A DNA stretch of 64,000 bases from an uncultured Bacteroidota bacterium (GCA_903919075.1 CAIXGR010000075.1:1-64000); one strand, 5' to 3'. Positions 40,399 to 48,409 are shown, counted from the first letter of the stretch. Numbers and translations: made by a program. The notes: generated from the letters alone by a model not told the origin.

Positions 40399-43300
40399 AT
40401 GCAGAAATTTAAATTGTTGAACAACATCTTCGGATGGCTATGCTTTATTTTCGCCATAGTGGTATATGGTATGACCATGGAAAAAAGCGGCAGCTTTTGG
40501 GATTGCGGCGAATTTATTCCCAGTGCTTTTAAATTAGAAATTGCACACCCACCAGGCTTTCCTCTGTTCCTGATGTTGGGCCGTATATTTGCCCTTTTTA
40601 CTGGGGCCGACCCCACAGTATACGGTGGTCACGGTGCCAATCACGTTGCCGCAGCTACCAATTTTATGAGCGCAGTAATGGCTGCCGGAACTGTTCTATT
40701 TACGTTTTGGATAACCACCAACTTAACCGGCAGGTTTGTTTTTAATGATGGCAATTATACCCCTGGCAGAATTATTAGCGTGCTTGGCGCAGGTGTAATA
40801 TCAGCTACCTCATGCACGTTTCTTGATTCGCAATGGTTCAGTGCTGTTGAGTTTATCGTTTTCACCAGCTCTCAGTTTTTCCTTTCATTCAATATATGGG
40901 CCATATTAAGATGGTATGACGACGACAGCAAATATGCCGACAAGTGGCTATTGCTTATTGCATATATAACTGGTGTATCTATAGGTGCCCACTTATTGGC
41001 CCTTCTTGGGCTTCCGGCAATTGCGGTGGTTATCTATTACAAAAAATTCAAAAAAACAACTGTTGGTGGTTGGATAGCTGCAGTAGCTTCCGGTTTTTTC
41101 CTGATTGGTATGTACATGAAGTATATTATATCTTATACTTTATCCTATCTGGCTAACCTCGATCTTTTCTTTGTTAACACATTGAATATGCCGTTTAACA
41201 GCGGGGTTTTATTTGGCGGATTGCTAGTGGTTGTAGTTATAGCATCCATATTATGGTATACTCATACAGGTAATGAGCGTGACTATAATATTGCTCTAGG
41301 CATAAGTATACTTTATGTTGGTATAGGTTTCTTTTTTGACAGCACCGTGCTTGCCAAATTTATTCGCATCATTTTCCCGCTAGGACTGTACCTTTCAAAC
41401 CGGTACGGGTACGAAATGCGTCGGTATTTTAATATAGGGATATTGGCTATTGCATTTTCATACATAGGTTATCTTTCATACCTCGTGGTTCCAATTCGTG
41501 CCGCGGCAAATCCGCCAATAAACATGAACCGGCCTACGGATCCTTTTACCATGAAATCATATGTTGACCGCGACCAGTATGGCGAACGTCCTTTATTATT
41601 TGGGCCCGACTACACGGTTAATTCGTACGACCTGGTAGATTATGCAAAATTAGACGAGCGCTGGACAAAAGTTAAAGGTGAAAGCAAATACATTTTCGAC
41701 GGCAATAAAATGGATTACAAATGGCGCGATGGCGTTAAAATGTTTTTCCCAAGAATGGGCTTTTGGCAAGAAGATGGTAAAAAAGCTGCGTACCGCGCAT
41801 GGCTTAACCCCGAATACAATGTGGTAAGCCGCGAAACGCATGAAATAGTTCAAACCTTCCCTTCTTCTGGCGAAAAACAAGCCAATGATTACGCAAGCGC
41901 ATTGAATAAAAAAGGCGGTGGTGGATATTATGTAAAAGATAATATAACATGGGGAGATAACATTAAATTTTTCTTTAAGTATCAGGTAGGCTTTATGTAT
42001 TTCCGCTATTTTATGTGGGATTTTACCGGAAGGCAGGATGACTTGCAAGGCACCTATGCCAATGATAACGGCCGGTGGATATCGGGTATTCCGTTTATCG
42101 ATAATAGCCATCGCTTTTTTACGCCCGATTGGCCACAGGAACATTTACCAAAAAGCTCATTAAGCAATAAGGCGCGAAATAAGTTTTATATGATTCCGCT
42201 AATAGTGGGTTTAATAGGGCTTGTTTTTACATTCTTTAAAGATGAAAAGACCTTCTGGCTTATTGCAATATTTTTCTTCACTACCGGCTTGGCTCAAATC
42301 ATTTTCCAGAACGAACCGCCTATTGAGCCACGTGAACGAGATTACTCAACAGCTTGTTCATTTGCAGTCTTTACCCTGTGGATGGGGTTTGGTGTTATAG
42401 GAATTATAGACCAACTAATAAAAAAATTGAAGGTGCCCGAAATCCCTGCATCATTAGGTGCCGTTGCATTGTGTGCTTTAGCTCCATTTTTAATGGGCTC
42501 GCAAGGATGGGATGACCATAACCGCGATGCGCGTTACACAGCACGCGATTTTGCAATTGATTATCTTGAATCTTGCGCACCTAATGCAGTACTGTTCACA
42601 CAGGGCGATAACGATACGTATCCGCTATGGTATGCTCAGGAAGTTGAAGGTGTACGTCCGGATATTCGGGTAATTAATCTTGAATTGGCCGGTGTTGATT
42701 GGTATATAGACCAGTTTAGATATAAAATGAACGAGGCTCCACCTTTAAAATTATCGTTCACTCCGGCGCAATTGCAAGGTAGCAAACGCGATGCTGTGCG
42801 CTATAAGCTTGGCCCCGGCATATCCGAAAATTCAGCTATTGAGTTGAAACGGGTAATGAACTTTATTGGCAGCGATGACGATAAAGCCAAGGTAATGTAT
42901 CAGAATGGCGATAAGGAAAACTATCTGCCAACCAAAAACTTTTACATGGATATTGATACAGATAAAGTGAAGAAATTAAACATGGTTGACGCAGCAGATG
43001 CAGGAAAGGTGGTTTCTCGTATGGAGTGGAGTATCGATAACTCTACGCTAATGAAGAACGACCTGATAACTTTAGATATAGTTGCCAATAACCTGATGGA
43101 CCGACCTATTTACTTCGCGGTGTCAGTGGCGCCTAGTGCTTACATGGGCCTATCTAAATATATGCAGCTTGAGGGTCTTACATACCGGGTAGTGCCTAAA
43201 GTAAACACAACCAATTCTCCTTACAATGCACCGGTACGTTTAGATGAAATGTACGACAACATGATGCACAAATTTAAGTTTGGCGGCATTAAGGAAAATA

Positions 43301-43875
43301 AAAACGTTTACATGGACGAAAACATTTTGCGTATGACCGTTAATATACGCAGCAATTTCGGCCGCTTAGGCGAAACAATTTTAGATAGAGCAGATAAAGA
43401 AGAAGCAGCCGGTAATATTGATTCAGCGAAACAAGATCGCATCAGTGCCGTGCATATTATTGATTACTCTTTAGATGAAATGCCTGCCGACAGGGTTCCT
43501 CATTCGGTTTTCGATTATTCATATCCTGAAGTTTATTTCCGCGCCGGTGAAAAAGAAAAGGGGCACAAGTTGTTAACTGAAATGTTTGACCGGGCTAAAG
43601 ATGAATTGAACTATTACAAAGTAGTTTATGAATTTGTATTAAACGATGCCAAAGAAAGTACAGACATTGGCTACCTGGCGCAATTACAACAAGGTGCATT
43701 TATGCAGCGCCATGAAGTAAGAGAACAACTATACATTATGCAAGAGTTAGATCTTGCTGCCAGAAAATACGAAGAGAAAAGTGTTGCCGAAAAAATAGAT
43801 AAAGATTTCAATGATTACCGGATGTCGTTTGTAAGAATGCCCCCAGGAGGCGGACAACCCGGTAGCCGGCAATAG
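40399..43875 (+). CDS. DUF2723 / GT117 membrane glycosyltransferase
   Basis: A 1158-residue protein with about 12 membrane helices in the first 370 residues and again near 610-690, and large soluble parts. The family opening is plain: SGSFWDCGEFIPSAFKLEIA, then HPPGFPLFLMLGRIF. The acidic DCGE region is the likely catalytic loop of a GT-C enzyme. DUF2723 is the family of human TMEM260, a protein O-mannosyltransferase for Ig-like IPT domains, so protein O-glycosylation in the periplasm is likely. The gene has its own strong terminator and is followed by a T9SS cargo gene and a TMTC-like enzyme gene. The sugar used is unknown. Confidence 0.9.
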   Translation: MQKFKLLNNIFGWLCFIFAIVVYGMTMEKSGSFWDCGEFIPSAFKLEIAHPPGFPLFLMLGRIFALFTGADPTVYGGHGANHVAAATNFMSAVMAAGTVLFTFWITTNLTGRFVFNDGNYTPGRIISVLGAGVISATSCTFLDSQWFSAVEFIVFTSSQFFLSFNIWAILRWYDDDSKYADKWLLLIAYITGVSIGAHLLALLGLPAIAVVIYYKKFKKTTVGGWIAAVASGFFLIGMYMKYIISYTLSYLANLDLFFVNTLNMPFNSGVLFGGLLVVVVIASILWYTHTGNERDYNIALGISILYVGIGFFFDSTVLAKFIRIIFPLGLYLSNRYGYEMRRYFNIGILAIAFSYIGYLSYLVVPIRAAANPPINMNRPTDPFTMKSYVDRDQYGERPLLFGPDYTVNSYDLVDYAKLDERWTKVKGESKYIFDGNKMDYKWRDGVKMFFPRMGFWQEDGKKAAYRAWLNPEYNVVSRETHEIVQTFPSSGEKQANDYASALNKKGGGGYYVKDNITWGDNIKFFFKYQVGFMYFRYFMWDFTGRQDDLQGTYANDNGRWISGIPFIDNSHRFFTPDWPQEHLPKSSLSNKARNKFYMIPLIVGLIGLVFTFFKDEKTFWLIAIFFFTTGLAQIIFQNEPPIEPRERDYSTACSFAVFTLWMGFGVIGIIDQLIKKLKVPEIPASLGAVALCALAPFLMGSQGWDDHNRDARYTARDFAIDYLESCAPNAVLFTQGDNDTYPLWYAQEVEGVRPDIRVINLELAGVDWYIDQFRYKMNEAPPLKLSFTPAQLQGSKRDAVRYKLGPGISENSAIELKRVMNFIGSDDDKAKVMYQNGDKENYLPTKNFYMDIDTDKVKKLNMVDAADAGKVVSRMEWSIDNSTLMKNDLITLDIVANNLMDRPIYFAVSVAPSAYMGLSKYMQLEGLTYRVVPKVNTTNSPYNAPVRLDEMYDNMMHKFKFGGIKENKNVYMDENILRMTVNIRSNFGRLGETILDRADKEEAAGNIDSAKQDRISAVHIIDYSLDEMPADRVPHSVFDYSYPEVYFRAGEKEKGHKLLTEMFDRAKDELNYYKVVYEFVLNDAKESTDIGYLAQLQQGAFMQRHEVREQLYIMQELDLAARKYEEKSVAEKIDKDFNDYRMSFVRMPPGGGQPGSRQ

Positions 43876-43910
43876 AAAAAGTTAAATTATCTATAAACTT
43901 AATTGAATTA

Positions 43911-43953
43911 AAAAGGCCGCTCAAAAGGTAATTTTTTTGAGCGGCCTTTTCTT
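43911..43953 (+). terminator. Rho-independent terminator after the DUF2723 gene
   Basis: A perfect 16-bp stem (AAAAGGCCGCTCAAAA / TTTTGAGCGGCCTTTT) with an 8-nt loop, followed by CTTT. Confidence 0.92.
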
Positions 43954-43989
43954 TCCTTTATCATTAACAACATCTGGTATGGGCAAATA

Positions 43990-44019
43990 TTGACTTTTGC
44001 TCTTTTTTGCTTATATTCG
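43990..44019 (+). promoter_or_regulatory. Promoter TTG-N19-TATATTCG for the SprB-repeat gene
   Basis: TTG at 43990-43992 is spaced 19 nt from TATATTCG at 44012-44019, the canonical Bacteroidota spacing with one base change in the -7 box. The start codon is 59 nt downstream. Confidence 0.5.
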
Positions 44020-44078
44020 GAAGAGGCAATTGCTGCCCAAGCTATAATAAAGCTCCATTTTTATATAATAATCCATAA

Positions 44079-46382
44079 ATGAAAAAAAGATTACCCGCAA
44101 TCCTGATTATTGCTTTTCTGTTCAGCATTATTTCATCAACCAATGCACAGCTAGTTACGTATGCCGATTATGATGCTAACGGCGAAGGCCCACTAAGTCA
44201 GGCTGCCGGCAATATCAATTTATCCTACACATCATCATATTTAGAGCGTCATAATGGGGCAGCACCTTTAAATTTTCCTTGTACCGAGGGCATGAGTAAT
44301 TCCGGAAATGCGTTTACATACCCATATTTCGATCTTTACTATGGCCCCTATATGTCGTGCACTGTTTATCCTAATGCTGGTTCTTCCATCAACATTACAG
44401 GTTTTAGTTTGGGAATAAGAAGCAGTCTTTACGGTGCTTATTACACCCGGTTGGTTTATTCAATTGATGGTGGAAACAGTTGGATTGATGATGGAGCGGA
44501 TACATATATACCCTACTCCAGTTGTATAACTCAATCTGATGTTTATGCATTTACATTAACATGGCCCCTTTCCGGCTCTCAAATAGCCACCAGCAATAAC
44601 GGAGTTGAATTTCGCATTTATGGATACGGTGCCGCGCAGGCTAGTGGAAATTTTCAACTACACACGGTTCAGATTTATGGAACAGTTCAAGATTGTTCAT
44701 CGCTCACCATCGATCAATCAGATTTTTCAATTTGCGATGGCGGCAGCGCCTCTCTTTCAGCATCCGGTGCAAGCAACTATCTTTGGACACCCTCAGATGG
44801 CTTATCATCTGACAATGTCTCTAATCCTATTGCCAGCCCTTCTTCAAACACGGTTTATACTTTAAATGGTTGCCCCGATGCTACTGTAACAGTGAATGTT
44901 AGCGCTCAACCTACCGGTCCAACTTTAGCATCACAAACACCTTCGGCAGCTTCAATATGCGCGGGTGGACAAGTTTCAGCAACTTTTAGTTCAGGCACCG
45001 GCGGCTCAGGTTGCGGCGATGACTTTACGTTTAGCATTGATGGAGGCTCGGCTACGCCCTATACACCGGGTGACCTAGTTGGCAGCACTGCCACAAATAG
45101 CATAGTAATTCAGGGAAGGCGGGCAACTTGTACAGATGGCGCTGGATGTACCGGTACAGATTATACAACCCTAGCAAGCTGGACTATTAATTCACCCCCA
45201 ACATTTACCGCCACCGGTACAAACATTACCTGCAATGGCGATACTAATGGAACTATTAATGTTTCTATAAGTTCCGGTGTTGCACCTTTCTCCTACTCTA
45301 TTAATAATGGCGGTTCATTTAATTATAACAGTGATACAATTACCGGTCTGCTGGCTAATACCTATACTGTACAGGTAATTGATAGCAACGGCTGCAAGGC
45401 ATCCGATTCGGCAATAGTAATCATCAGCCAGCCGGCTATATTAACCCCGCCATTTATTACTTTAACTAAAAATATTACATGCGATAGCTCTACTGCCGGG
45501 GTGGTAAGCATAACCACACTGCCTACCGGGGGCACTAGCCCATATCAGTTTTCGATTAATGCCGGTAATTACCAAGGCGATACAACATTTATTGGGTTAA
45601 GTGCCGGCACCTATAGCGTCATTGCCCTCGATTCAAACGGTTGTATTTCACCCGTTTCCGACTCAATAACTTTAGCTACTTCGCAACCCTATATTACAGC
45701 AGCAAGTAACGGGCCTGTTTGCGAAGGCGATACATTAAAATTATTTGCAAGTAATTTTTCGAATGCTACTTATAGTTGGACCGGTCCAAATACTTTTAGT
45801 GAAAAAAATCCGGTTAAAGCTAACGCTAGTTTATCCGATGACGGCACCTATTCTGTAATAGCAACTGTTGGCTCATGCACTAGCTCTCCGGCAACAACTG
45901 TAGTGCTTATTAACCCCAGCCCATCGGCTTCAATTTCCAGCAATGGTGATACCCTTACTTCATATAACGCAACTTCATTTCAATGGTATCTGGGCGATAG
46001 TTTAATATCTGGTGCTACTTCATCTACTTATGTGGCGCAGCAATCCGGTTCATATTCTGTGTTAATAACAGATAGTAATGGTTGTACAGCTTTTTCAAAT
46101 GGTGTAAATGTTACCGTATTGGGAATAGCCACTTTAACAGGAAACAATATTTTTGAAATTTATCCCAATCCGGTAGGCGATAAATTTACAGTTATTACCA
46201 ATAATTCCGATGTTCAGCGCGCCCCAATTGAACTCATAGACGTTTCGGGCAGAAAATATGCGCATGGCAATATGCCATTGGGCACTCAATTTTCAAAAAC
46301 TGAAATTGATGTTAGCATGCTAGCACCCGGAGTATACATTTTAAAGATAAATAATACCCTCCGTAGATTTGTAAAGCAATAA
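44079..46382 (+). CDS. T9SS cargo with Ig-like domains and SprB repeats
   Basis: A 767-residue secreted protein. After the signal peptide (MKKRLPAILIIAFLFSIISS), residues about 25-205 form an uncharacterised beta-rich domain. Ig/PKD-like domains follow near 205-380. Two SprB repeats lie at about 385-450 and 462-535, with ITCNGDTNGTINV, ITCDSSTAGVVSI and repeated VIDSNGC / ALDSNGC ends. Two more Ig-like domains precede a type A T9SS sorting domain from about 690 (IFEIYPNPVGDKFTV to the end). It should be displayed on or released from the surface. Its position between two putative O-mannosyltransferase genes is notable. Confidence 0.9.
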   Translation: MKKRLPAILIIAFLFSIISSTNAQLVTYADYDANGEGPLSQAAGNINLSYTSSYLERHNGAAPLNFPCTEGMSNSGNAFTYPYFDLYYGPYMSCTVYPNAGSSINITGFSLGIRSSLYGAYYTRLVYSIDGGNSWIDDGADTYIPYSSCITQSDVYAFTLTWPLSGSQIATSNNGVEFRIYGYGAAQASGNFQLHTVQIYGTVQDCSSLTIDQSDFSICDGGSASLSASGASNYLWTPSDGLSSDNVSNPIASPSSNTVYTLNGCPDATVTVNVSAQPTGPTLASQTPSAASICAGGQVSATFSSGTGGSGCGDDFTFSIDGGSATPYTPGDLVGSTATNSIVIQGRRATCTDGAGCTGTDYTTLASWTINSPPTFTATGTNITCNGDTNGTINVSISSGVAPFSYSINNGGSFNYNSDTITGLLANTYTVQVIDSNGCKASDSAIVIISQPAILTPPFITLTKNITCDSSTAGVVSITTLPTGGTSPYQFSINAGNYQGDTTFIGLSAGTYSVIALDSNGCISPVSDSITLATSQPYITAASNGPVCEGDTLKLFASNFSNATYSWTGPNTFSEKNPVKANASLSDDGTYSVIATVGSCTSSPATTVVLINPSPSASISSNGDTLTSYNATSFQWYLGDSLISGATSSTYVAQQSGSYSVLITDSNGCTAFSNGVNVTVLGIATLTGNNIFEIYPNPVGDKFTVITNNSDVQRAPIELIDVSGRKYAHGNMPLGTQFSKTEIDVSMLAPGVYILKINNTLRRFVKQ

Positions 46383-46464
46383 GGTATATTTTAATCAAAG
46401 CTTTCTCATTCAGCTCAGCATAAATACTTAAATTTAACCGGTGGAAAAAAGCTGGGTAAATAAG

Positions 46465-46472
46465 TATATTCG
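46465..46472 (+). promoter_or_regulatory. TATATTCG box upstream of the TMTC-like gene
   Basis: The octamer lies 29 nt before the ATG at 46502. No TTG is present at a suitable distance upstream, so this is a weak call. Confidence 0.3.
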
Positions 46473-46501
46473 CCTATTGCGAATTAAATGACTTGCTTGT
46501 T

Positions 46502-48409
46502 ATGGCAAAGAAAAGAGATAGACAAAATGAAAAAACTGGCCCCACAGTTTACAAACAACCTTCCCCTAAAAAACAATCAGCCTATAAAGATCGGGATTTC
46601 ATTAGCCGCTTTTCTCATACTACATTAATTATTGCCATCTCTTTTATTACCTGGTTGTTTTATAAAGCCAGCTTAAACAATCAGTTTACCGATTGGGACG
46701 ATAAAGGATATCTACTAAACAACCTATTGCTAAAAGACCTTTCATTTAATGGTCTGAAAAATATTTTTGTAACTCCGGTTATGGGACATTATCATCCCAT
46801 AACTATTTTAATCTATGCACTTGAGTACCACCTGGTACAATTTGACCCTTGGCTATATCATTTTGATAGTGTCCTATTCCATATGTTTTGCGTAATACTA
46901 TCCTATTGGCTGGTCTACCTGCTAACACAAAACAAAACAGTATCCTCAATAACCGCCCTGCTTTTTAGCCTTCATCCAATGCACGTTGAATCGGTTGCTT
47001 GGATAGCAGGCAGAAAGGATGTACTTTGTACTATGTTTTACTTCGCAGCTTGTATCTGCTATCTCTATTATTTAAGAACCAACGATATTAAAAAGAAGAG
47101 ACCAAGGTATGCGGGTGTTTTCATCCTTTATTTACTGGCTCTTTTATGCAAACCAATTGCTGTAACTCTTCCTTTGGTTTTGCTGCTACTGGACTATTAC
47201 GAAAAACTCAACTGGAAAACATCTGTATTCTTTGAGAAAATTCCATTTTTTATTACTGCTGTATTTTTTGGCCTTTTATCTATTGAAATAAGCCGCACCG
47301 GTGGGGTGATGGATATACATAAAGTAGACTATACTTTTTTTGAGCGCATTAACCTTATGGGGTATACATTGTTTCTTTATTTATGGAAAGCTTTATTGCC
47401 CATACATTTACATAACTTTTATCCATACCCTTCAAAAGTAAATGGCTCAATACCCTACTATTACTTTTCTTTTCCTTTAATAATAGCTGCAGCTTCTTTT
47501 GCGTTTTGGTATTACTTTAGACATAAAAAAGAAATTGTTTTTGGTATGCTTTTCTTTATGGCCAACATTGCATTACTGGTTAAATTTATACCGGTAGGCG
47601 ATGCCATCGTTGCCGAGCGCTATACCTACGCCTCGTACTTTGGCCTATTTTTTATTATAGGGTGGCTGGTATCTTCATTCATTTCAAAAGGAAACTACCA
47701 ATATCCTAAATACCTGGTTCTTATTGTATGTTTCTTTTTTATGGGGTATGCTACCAGTGAAAGGTGCAAAGTATGGTATGATGCGCGTTCACTATGGACG
47801 GATGAAATGGTAAAAGAAGGCGCTCAGGCACCAGTAGCATACAATAATCTTGGGTTTTATTATTTCGAAAAGCGCACTGCCAATGCCACGCCTGCGGAAA
47901 GAAAAAGAGATGCAGATTCGGCTTTATATATGCTGCGCAAAGCGGTGGAGTTTAAGCCTGATTACGTGAATGCTATTGAGGGCCTGGGTATTCTTTACTT
48001 TATGAATCACACCACCGATTCATCGCTTTTCTATTTCAGAAAATTTCTTGAATTAAAGCCATGTTCCGAATCATATTACGATTACGCTCTTTTATTGGAT
48101 AATACAAATCAAAGAGATTCGGCATTACTAGATTACACACAATCAATAATGCTTGATTCAACAAATTGGAAACCGCGCTTAAATAGAGGTATTATTTACC
48201 AGCAACAACGCGACTACGAAAGAGCAATAATAGATTTTGACAAAGCCATAAAAATAGACTCTACCTTGGGTTCAGCGTATTACCAGCGCTCAATTTGCGA
48301 AACAGTATTAGGAAATAGAACACGCGCCTTGGAAGACGTAGAAAAAGCAAGGAGGCTTGGCTTTGCTGAAATAGATAGCCGATTTTACAATAGCTTAAAG
48401 AATCAATAA
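46502..48409 (+). CDS. TMTC-like membrane glycosyltransferase with TPR repeats
   Basis: A 635-residue protein from ATG 46502 (MAKKRDRQNEKTG). Residues about 35-420 hold 10-11 membrane helices, and about 430-635 hold TPR repeats (for example YERAIIDFDKAIKIDSTLG). The first loop has the acidic FTDWDDKGYL expected in GT-C enzymes. HPMHVESVAWIAGRKDVL closely matches the hallmark of eukaryotic TMTC proteins, which O-mannosylate cadherin domains. It is therefore a probable periplasmic protein O-glycosyltransferase. It follows the SprB-repeat T9SS gene by 119 bp. The donor and acceptors are not known. Confidence 0.88.
   Translation: MAKKRDRQNEKTGPTVYKQPSPKKQSAYKDRDFISRFSHTTLIIAISFITWLFYKASLNNQFTDWDDKGYLLNNLLLKDLSFNGLKNIFVTPVMGHYHPITILIYALEYHLVQFDPWLYHFDSVLFHMFCVILSYWLVYLLTQNKTVSSITALLFSLHPMHVESVAWIAGRKDVLCTMFYFAACICYLYYLRTNDIKKKRPRYAGVFILYLLALLCKPIAVTLPLVLLLLDYYEKLNWKTSVFFEKIPFFITAVFFGLLSIEISRTGGVMDIHKVDYTFFERINLMGYTLFLYLWKALLPIHLHNFYPYPSKVNGSIPYYYFSFPLIIAAASFAFWYYFRHKKEIVFGMLFFMANIALLVKFIPVGDAIVAERYTYASYFGLFFIIGWLVSSFISKGNYQYPKYLVLIVCFFFMGYATSERCKVWYDARSLWTDEMVKEGAQAPVAYNNLGFYYFEKRTANATPAERKRDADSALYMLRKAVEFKPDYVNAIEGLGILYFMNHTTDSSLFYFRKFLELKPCSESYYDYALLLDNTNQRDSALLDYTQSIMLDSTNWKPRLNRGIIYQQQRDYERAIIDFDKAIKIDSTLGSAYYQRSICETVLGNRTRALEDVEKARRLGFAEIDSRFYNSLKNQ

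Follow-up and report, generated by a model that had tools for sequence, protein, structure and literature searches.

In animals, two families of GT-C glycosyltransferases O-mannosylate proteins: TMTC1-4 (GT105), which act on cadherins, and TMEM260 (GT117), a 729-aa enzyme acting on the IPT domains of plexins, so that the substrates of both are Ig-like folds (PMC11292533). Prokaryotic homologues of the TMTCs, full-length proteins in which the GT-C part is combined with TPRs, have been described by Eisenhaber and colleagues, the accessible text of that paper naming neither a genomic partner nor a substrate for them (PMC7801869). In Bacteroidota, general O-glycosylation modifies extracytoplasmic proteins with a core, commonly beginning with mannose and rhamnose, that carries an outer glycan (LFG); according to a 2025 review, the OTase and the core flippase of this system are undiscovered, and a search for homologues of eukaryotic O-mannosylation has been recommended (PMC12871550).

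Here, we describe a window of 64,000 nucleotides from an uncultured member of the Bacteroidota, in which relatives of both animal families stand on either side of a gene for a secreted protein. The reading that we prefer, with a probability of roughly 0.45, is that the TMTC-like enzyme glycosylates the neighbouring Ig-like cargo of the type IX secretion system (T9SS), the TMEM260-like (DUF2723) copy of the window being altered and its canonical counterpart elsewhere in the genome being a candidate for the core transferase.

The locus and its host genome

All three genes lie on the plus strand, and their ORFs and families were confirmed as given in the initial annotation. The features are as follows:

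40399-43875, + strand: DUF2723/TMEM260-like GT-C protein, paralogue 'B', 1158 aa (ORF, PF11028)
43911-43950, + strand: intrinsic-terminator-like hairpin with an 18-bp stem, -25.9 kcal/mol, about 35 bp 3' of the DUF2723 stop codon
44079-46382, + strand: T9SS type A cargo, 767 aa (ORF, PF18962, TIGR04183)
46493-48409, + strand: TMTC-like GT-C glycosyltransferase with C-terminal TPRs, 638 aa (ORF, TPR Pfam matches); the listed start is a TTG at 46493, an ATG at 46502 being likelier

The host genome, a 3.53-Mb draft that is 99.6% complete, contains two PF11028 genes, namely, that of the window and a copy on contig C30, as well as three TMTC-like genes; among named organisms, Flavipsychrobacter, Taibaiella and other Chitinophagaceae have the genes closest to the TMTC-like gene of the window. 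Secreted proteins are abundant in this genome, with T9SS type A tails numbering at least 150 (a lower bound, since 150 of the 211 candidates were scored) and 25 CHU_C tails over the cut-off. The 767-aa cargo consists of an N-terminal hydrophobic leader, a SprB repeat, an Ig_7/PKD-like region and a C-terminal sorting domain, the last of which belongs to the T9SS families by its scores against PF18962 (44 bits) and TIGR04183 (38.7 bits). To speak of Ig-like and SprB repeats, as had been done for this protein, was slightly generous: one SprB repeat exceeds its cut-off, and Ig_7 remains just below (26.3 vs 27.3).

A second copy of a phylum-wide TMEM260-like gene

The placement of the DUF2723 protein in the TMEM260 family proved correct. 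It matches PF11028 ('TMEM260-like') with 180.1 bits, far over the curated cut-off of 24.2, and a profile of this protein together with 18 relatives retrieved from the PDB human TMEM260 (9rql, E = 2.5e-18) and no other match at E<=0.01. Shared with the human enzyme are PF11028 and the first-loop pattern D..GE ... HPPG.P. The family is a constant feature of the phylum, occurring in 391 of the 392 Bacteroidota genomes of at least 95% completeness and in all 183 genera; beyond Bacteroidota, where its distribution was judged from 14 control genomes alone, the single positive control was Bacteroides and the 13 genomes from outside the phylum were negative. Throughout the genus, the family and parts of the order, the usual neighbour of DUF2723 is rlmB, and the contig C30 copy, to which we refer as canonical, is likewise followed by a gene that reads as a SpoU-type RNA methyltransferase. 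The size of this neighbour had suggested a polyprenyl-phosphate-mannose synthase, an identification abandoned once the sequences were seen to be of the SpoU kind.

In the phylogenetic tree, the DUF2723 of the window falls within a supported four-species clade, B, nested inside the genus, and is therefore a recent duplicate, that is, a second, diverged within-genus copy of the phylum-wide TMEM260-like enzyme. Invariant columns of the alignment include D35, E38, H50, P52 and G53, and the window copy retains both WDCGE, of which D35 and E38 align with the human D.GE, and HPPG. By contrast, Glu153, which is a glutamate in 16 of 16 canonical copies and aligns with the Glu of the human AEVF, within a motif, (E)V[YF], that the canonical bacterial copies retain, has been lost from the window copy, where EGEVYA has become EFIVFT; the aligned B copies have Ile at this position. 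Because of this loss, and judging from conservation, the window enzyme has probably changed in its specificity or its activity, and may be impaired.

The surroundings of the B copies are variable. In G013, the other species that carries both DUF2723 copies, the B copy has a PMT_2-family GT-C gene on one side and, on the other, a T9SS cargo in which PKD_6 is matched ten times (L070:3293-12743). In G006 (L073:6905-13144) and G011 (L072), four or more genes lie between or beside the B-type DUF2723, with the extra genes of L073 separating it from rlmB. Two of these extra genes weakly match the Wadjet components JetC (1.8e-5) and JetD (7.7e-5), and two further ones had no match in PADLOC; this locus may have received an insertion of a diverged defence island of the Wadjet kind.

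As for the canonical copy beside rlmB, its family and its phylum-wide distribution fit the general O-glycosylation of Bacteroidota, and for these reasons we propose as a hypothesis that it could be the transferase that starts the Man-Rha core. Such universality would, however, suit a GT-C enzyme in any housekeeping role. Sequons of the Bacteroidota O-glycosylation type, D-[ST]-[AILVMT], number seven in the 767-aa cargo, against 3.9 +/- 1.8 in shuffled sequences, an excess that falls short of significance (p 0.087). Within the literature collection searched, no paper turned up on DUF2723, nor any on GT117 in Bacteroidota. The near-universal TMEM260-like gene provides one concrete gene to test for the role of core transferase.

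The TMTC-like protein and its secreted partners

An AlphaFold2 model of the TMTC-like protein, computed from a 70-row alignment (pLDDT 93.7), has a GT-C fold of the PMT/OST kind, to which the C-terminal TPRs, also matched by Pfam, are appended. Its membrane half matches OST (Z 21.3), Pmt4 (20.5), Pmt1-Pmt2 (20.0), ALG12 (19.1) and ArnT (18.9), as found with a second structural aligner, the top rows of Foldseek all being TPR proteins. Searched by sequence, the GT-C half yielded no PDB match at E<=0.01, and PMT_2 was reached at the same threshold by 18 of the 70 relatives. PF08409, the DUF1736 domain of the TMTCs, had no match at E<=0.01 in the window protein and did not rank with the 25 commonest families in the 70 relatives.

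With the seven motifs of the human TMTCs as a reference (PMC7801869), the TMTC character that had been ascribed to this protein could be upheld in part. Residues 161-176, in the multi-pass half ahead of the TPRs, carry the motif HPMHVESVAWIAGRKD, and M1 (D69/D70), M3 (R174-x-D176) and M7 (E375-R376-x-x-Y379) were all recognized, with D69, D70, D176, K220, R376 and Y379 invariant in 70 of 70 rows; thus, by its sequence, the protein possesses the predicted catalytic Asp pair and the putative lipid-phosphate contacts. On the other hand, M2 is cut down to Y-x-P, M4, KE(T/Q)xxT in the animal enzymes, retains K220 but continues with P221 in place of the metal-ligand Glu, and neither PxxP nor, outside EL1, the DW of M5, a predicted metal ligand located in EL4 of the animal proteins, was detected. 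Because two metal-ligand motifs and DUF1736 of the animal TMTCs are missing, the protein is best described as TMTC-like rather than as a TMTC; what it has in common with them is a GT-C part followed by TPRs, together with DD, RxD, the Lys and ERxxY.

The architecture is that of the previously described prokaryotic homologues, to which we add a recurrent genomic partner. Among the 35 loci of the subfamily that have an upstream neighbour on the same strand, this neighbour carries a T9SS tail in 14 (40%), compared with 7 of 182 (3.8%) among the other genes of these stretches (Fisher 3e-8, with kinship ignored); L297 is a possible 15th pair, its tail being a weak Pfam match (20 bits vs the cut-off of 27). 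At other Bacteroidota TMTC-like loci, outside the subfamily, the corresponding numbers are 6/36 vs 11/235 (p 0.015, kinship again ignored). Ten of the paired rows fall into a single 15-row clade of the tree and the pair is present elsewhere too; as a label on the tree it requires 11 changes, of which well-supported branches force 7, and clustering as strong as that of the observed label arose in 6 of 500 shuffles, although tandem copies at one locus were counted as separate rows and independence is thereby overstated. The partners that were scanned, those of the 15-row clade as well as of L293, L300 and L303, combine Big_2 and/or NUP210-type Ig-like domains with a T9SS tail, some also having a glycine-rich N-terminal domain. 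Downstream of the pairs, the context varies, with a gene for a SAM hydroxide adenosyltransferase at some loci and for a PDZ protein at others, and therefore the cargo and the enzyme are the common part. The paired TMTC-like genes are patchy rather than universal, in which they differ from the general O-glycosylation system, and at many loci the TMTC-like gene stands without a T9SS neighbour.

Terminator-like hairpins occupy most of the conserved gaps between cargo and enzyme, which makes co-transcription of the two genes uncertain. Examples within gaps of 50-120 bp are L140, L141, L142, L279, L281, L284 and L288; in L140, the hairpin reaches to within one base of the start assigned to the enzyme gene. 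Terminators had been considered as proof that the cargo and the TMTC-like gene are unlinked, an argument that was dropped because hairpins also separate the two genes in most of the conserved pairs. Read-through of such hairpins may yield much cargo and little enzyme, and may in this way tune the enzyme relative to its substrate.

Competing readings and a proposed mechanism

The initial annotation had interpreted the three genes as a local glycosylation module, in which the two enzymes modify different domain types of the 767-aa protein. The genes are indeed adjacent on one strand, and the G013 locus, where a PMT_2 GT-C gene and a T9SS cargo rich in PKD domains lie beside the B-type DUF2723, is reminiscent of such an arrangement. 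The lack of synteny, however, largely refutes the module. A close TMTC-like gene was absent from 33 of 33 other DUF2723 neighbourhoods, and no DUF2723 stood within the roughly 10 kb inspected around other TMTC-like genes, a survey that covered 79 contig stretches from other genomes as well as 35 further stretches of the subfamily. In 12 genomes that have close TMTC-like relatives, DUF2723 is matched exactly once, outside the stretches around the TMTC-like gene. With the trio found at no other DUF2723 or TMTC-like locus inspected, its synteny was dismissed. Furthermore, DUF2723 is universal whereas close TMTC-like genes occur in 50 of the 148 genomes of the order, a strong terminator with an 18-bp stem and a T-rich end splits DUF2723 from the cargo, and the window DUF2723 lacks a conserved Glu, all of which makes joint modification of the cargo by both enzymes very improbable. 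What survives of the original idea is the link between enzyme and cargo, inasmuch as a TMTC-like gene with an upstream Ig-like T9SS cargo recurs, although without DUF2723.

Even this link could be fortuitous at the present locus, a mobile or duplicated DUF2723, one T9SS cargo and one TMTC-like gene having come to lie together without any functional connection. Adjacency to a T9SS-tailed gene is cheap in a 3.53-Mb genome with so many of them, the other TMTC-like copies of this genome have different neighbours, and DUF2723 is linked to neither gene at other loci. In addition, the cargo of the window is of the SprB type and not homologous to the conserved partners, being no orthologue of the Big_2 cargoes, which it matches at 26-33% over partial alignments; for this reason, our confidence in the window locus is tempered, and the evidence for an enzyme-cargo relationship at this exact position is modest. 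Nevertheless, the rate of upstream cargoes in the subfamily is far over the background, and a T9SS cargo lies directly downstream of DUF2723 on the same strand in two of the four B-type copies (those of the window and G013), so that a chance neighbourhood appears to us an unlikely explanation, if one to be taken seriously. Alternatively, one or both GT-C enzymes might act on lipid- or polysaccharide-linked acceptors in the manner of ArnT or the ALG enzymes. The fold of the TMTC-like protein matches ArnT and ALG12 as well, lptG is located upstream of DUF2723 in the window, and the metal-ligand motifs of the animal TMTCs are missing. Yet those TPR-bearing GT-C enzymes for which acceptors have been established, namely, the TMTCs, use proteins (PMC11292533), the TMTC-like gene is recurrently paired with Ig-like secreted proteins, and lptG does not adjoin DUF2723 in the related loci inspected; we consider such acceptors improbable.

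If the TMTC-like enzyme indeed glycosylates its neighbour, it would function as an inner-membrane GT-C glycosyltransferase, relying on the Asp pair D69/D70 and on K220 and R376 as lipid-phosphate residues, with the TPRs that follow the last membrane helix lying, by homology, in the periplasm. There, the TPRs could hold an Ig-like domain, unfolded or folded, while a polyprenyl-phosphate carrier would supply a sugar, which may be mannose, for attachment to Ser/Thr residues of the neighbour, the Ig-like T9SS protein whose gene lies immediately upstream. The transfer would take place during the periplasmic passage of the cargo, before its export by the T9SS. A bolder version of this reading, in which the TMTC-like enzyme is dedicated to its paired Ig-like T9SS proteins as a bacterial counterpart of the TMTC-cadherin pairing, DUF2723 adds the first mannose of the Bacteroidota glycan and the window copy has been re-specialised, we regard as doubtful. 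Were the preferred reading true, the pairs would point to TPR-bearing GT-C enzymes as O-glycosylating Ig-fold adhesins beyond animals as well; bacterial enzyme-substrate pairs of this kind would also be simple material for structural work.

The TMTC-like genes themselves are clustered in places, with four in a row in L182:2414-10757 and several in L200:2976-21275, some of them weak matches to the model, which suggests local expansion of the family.
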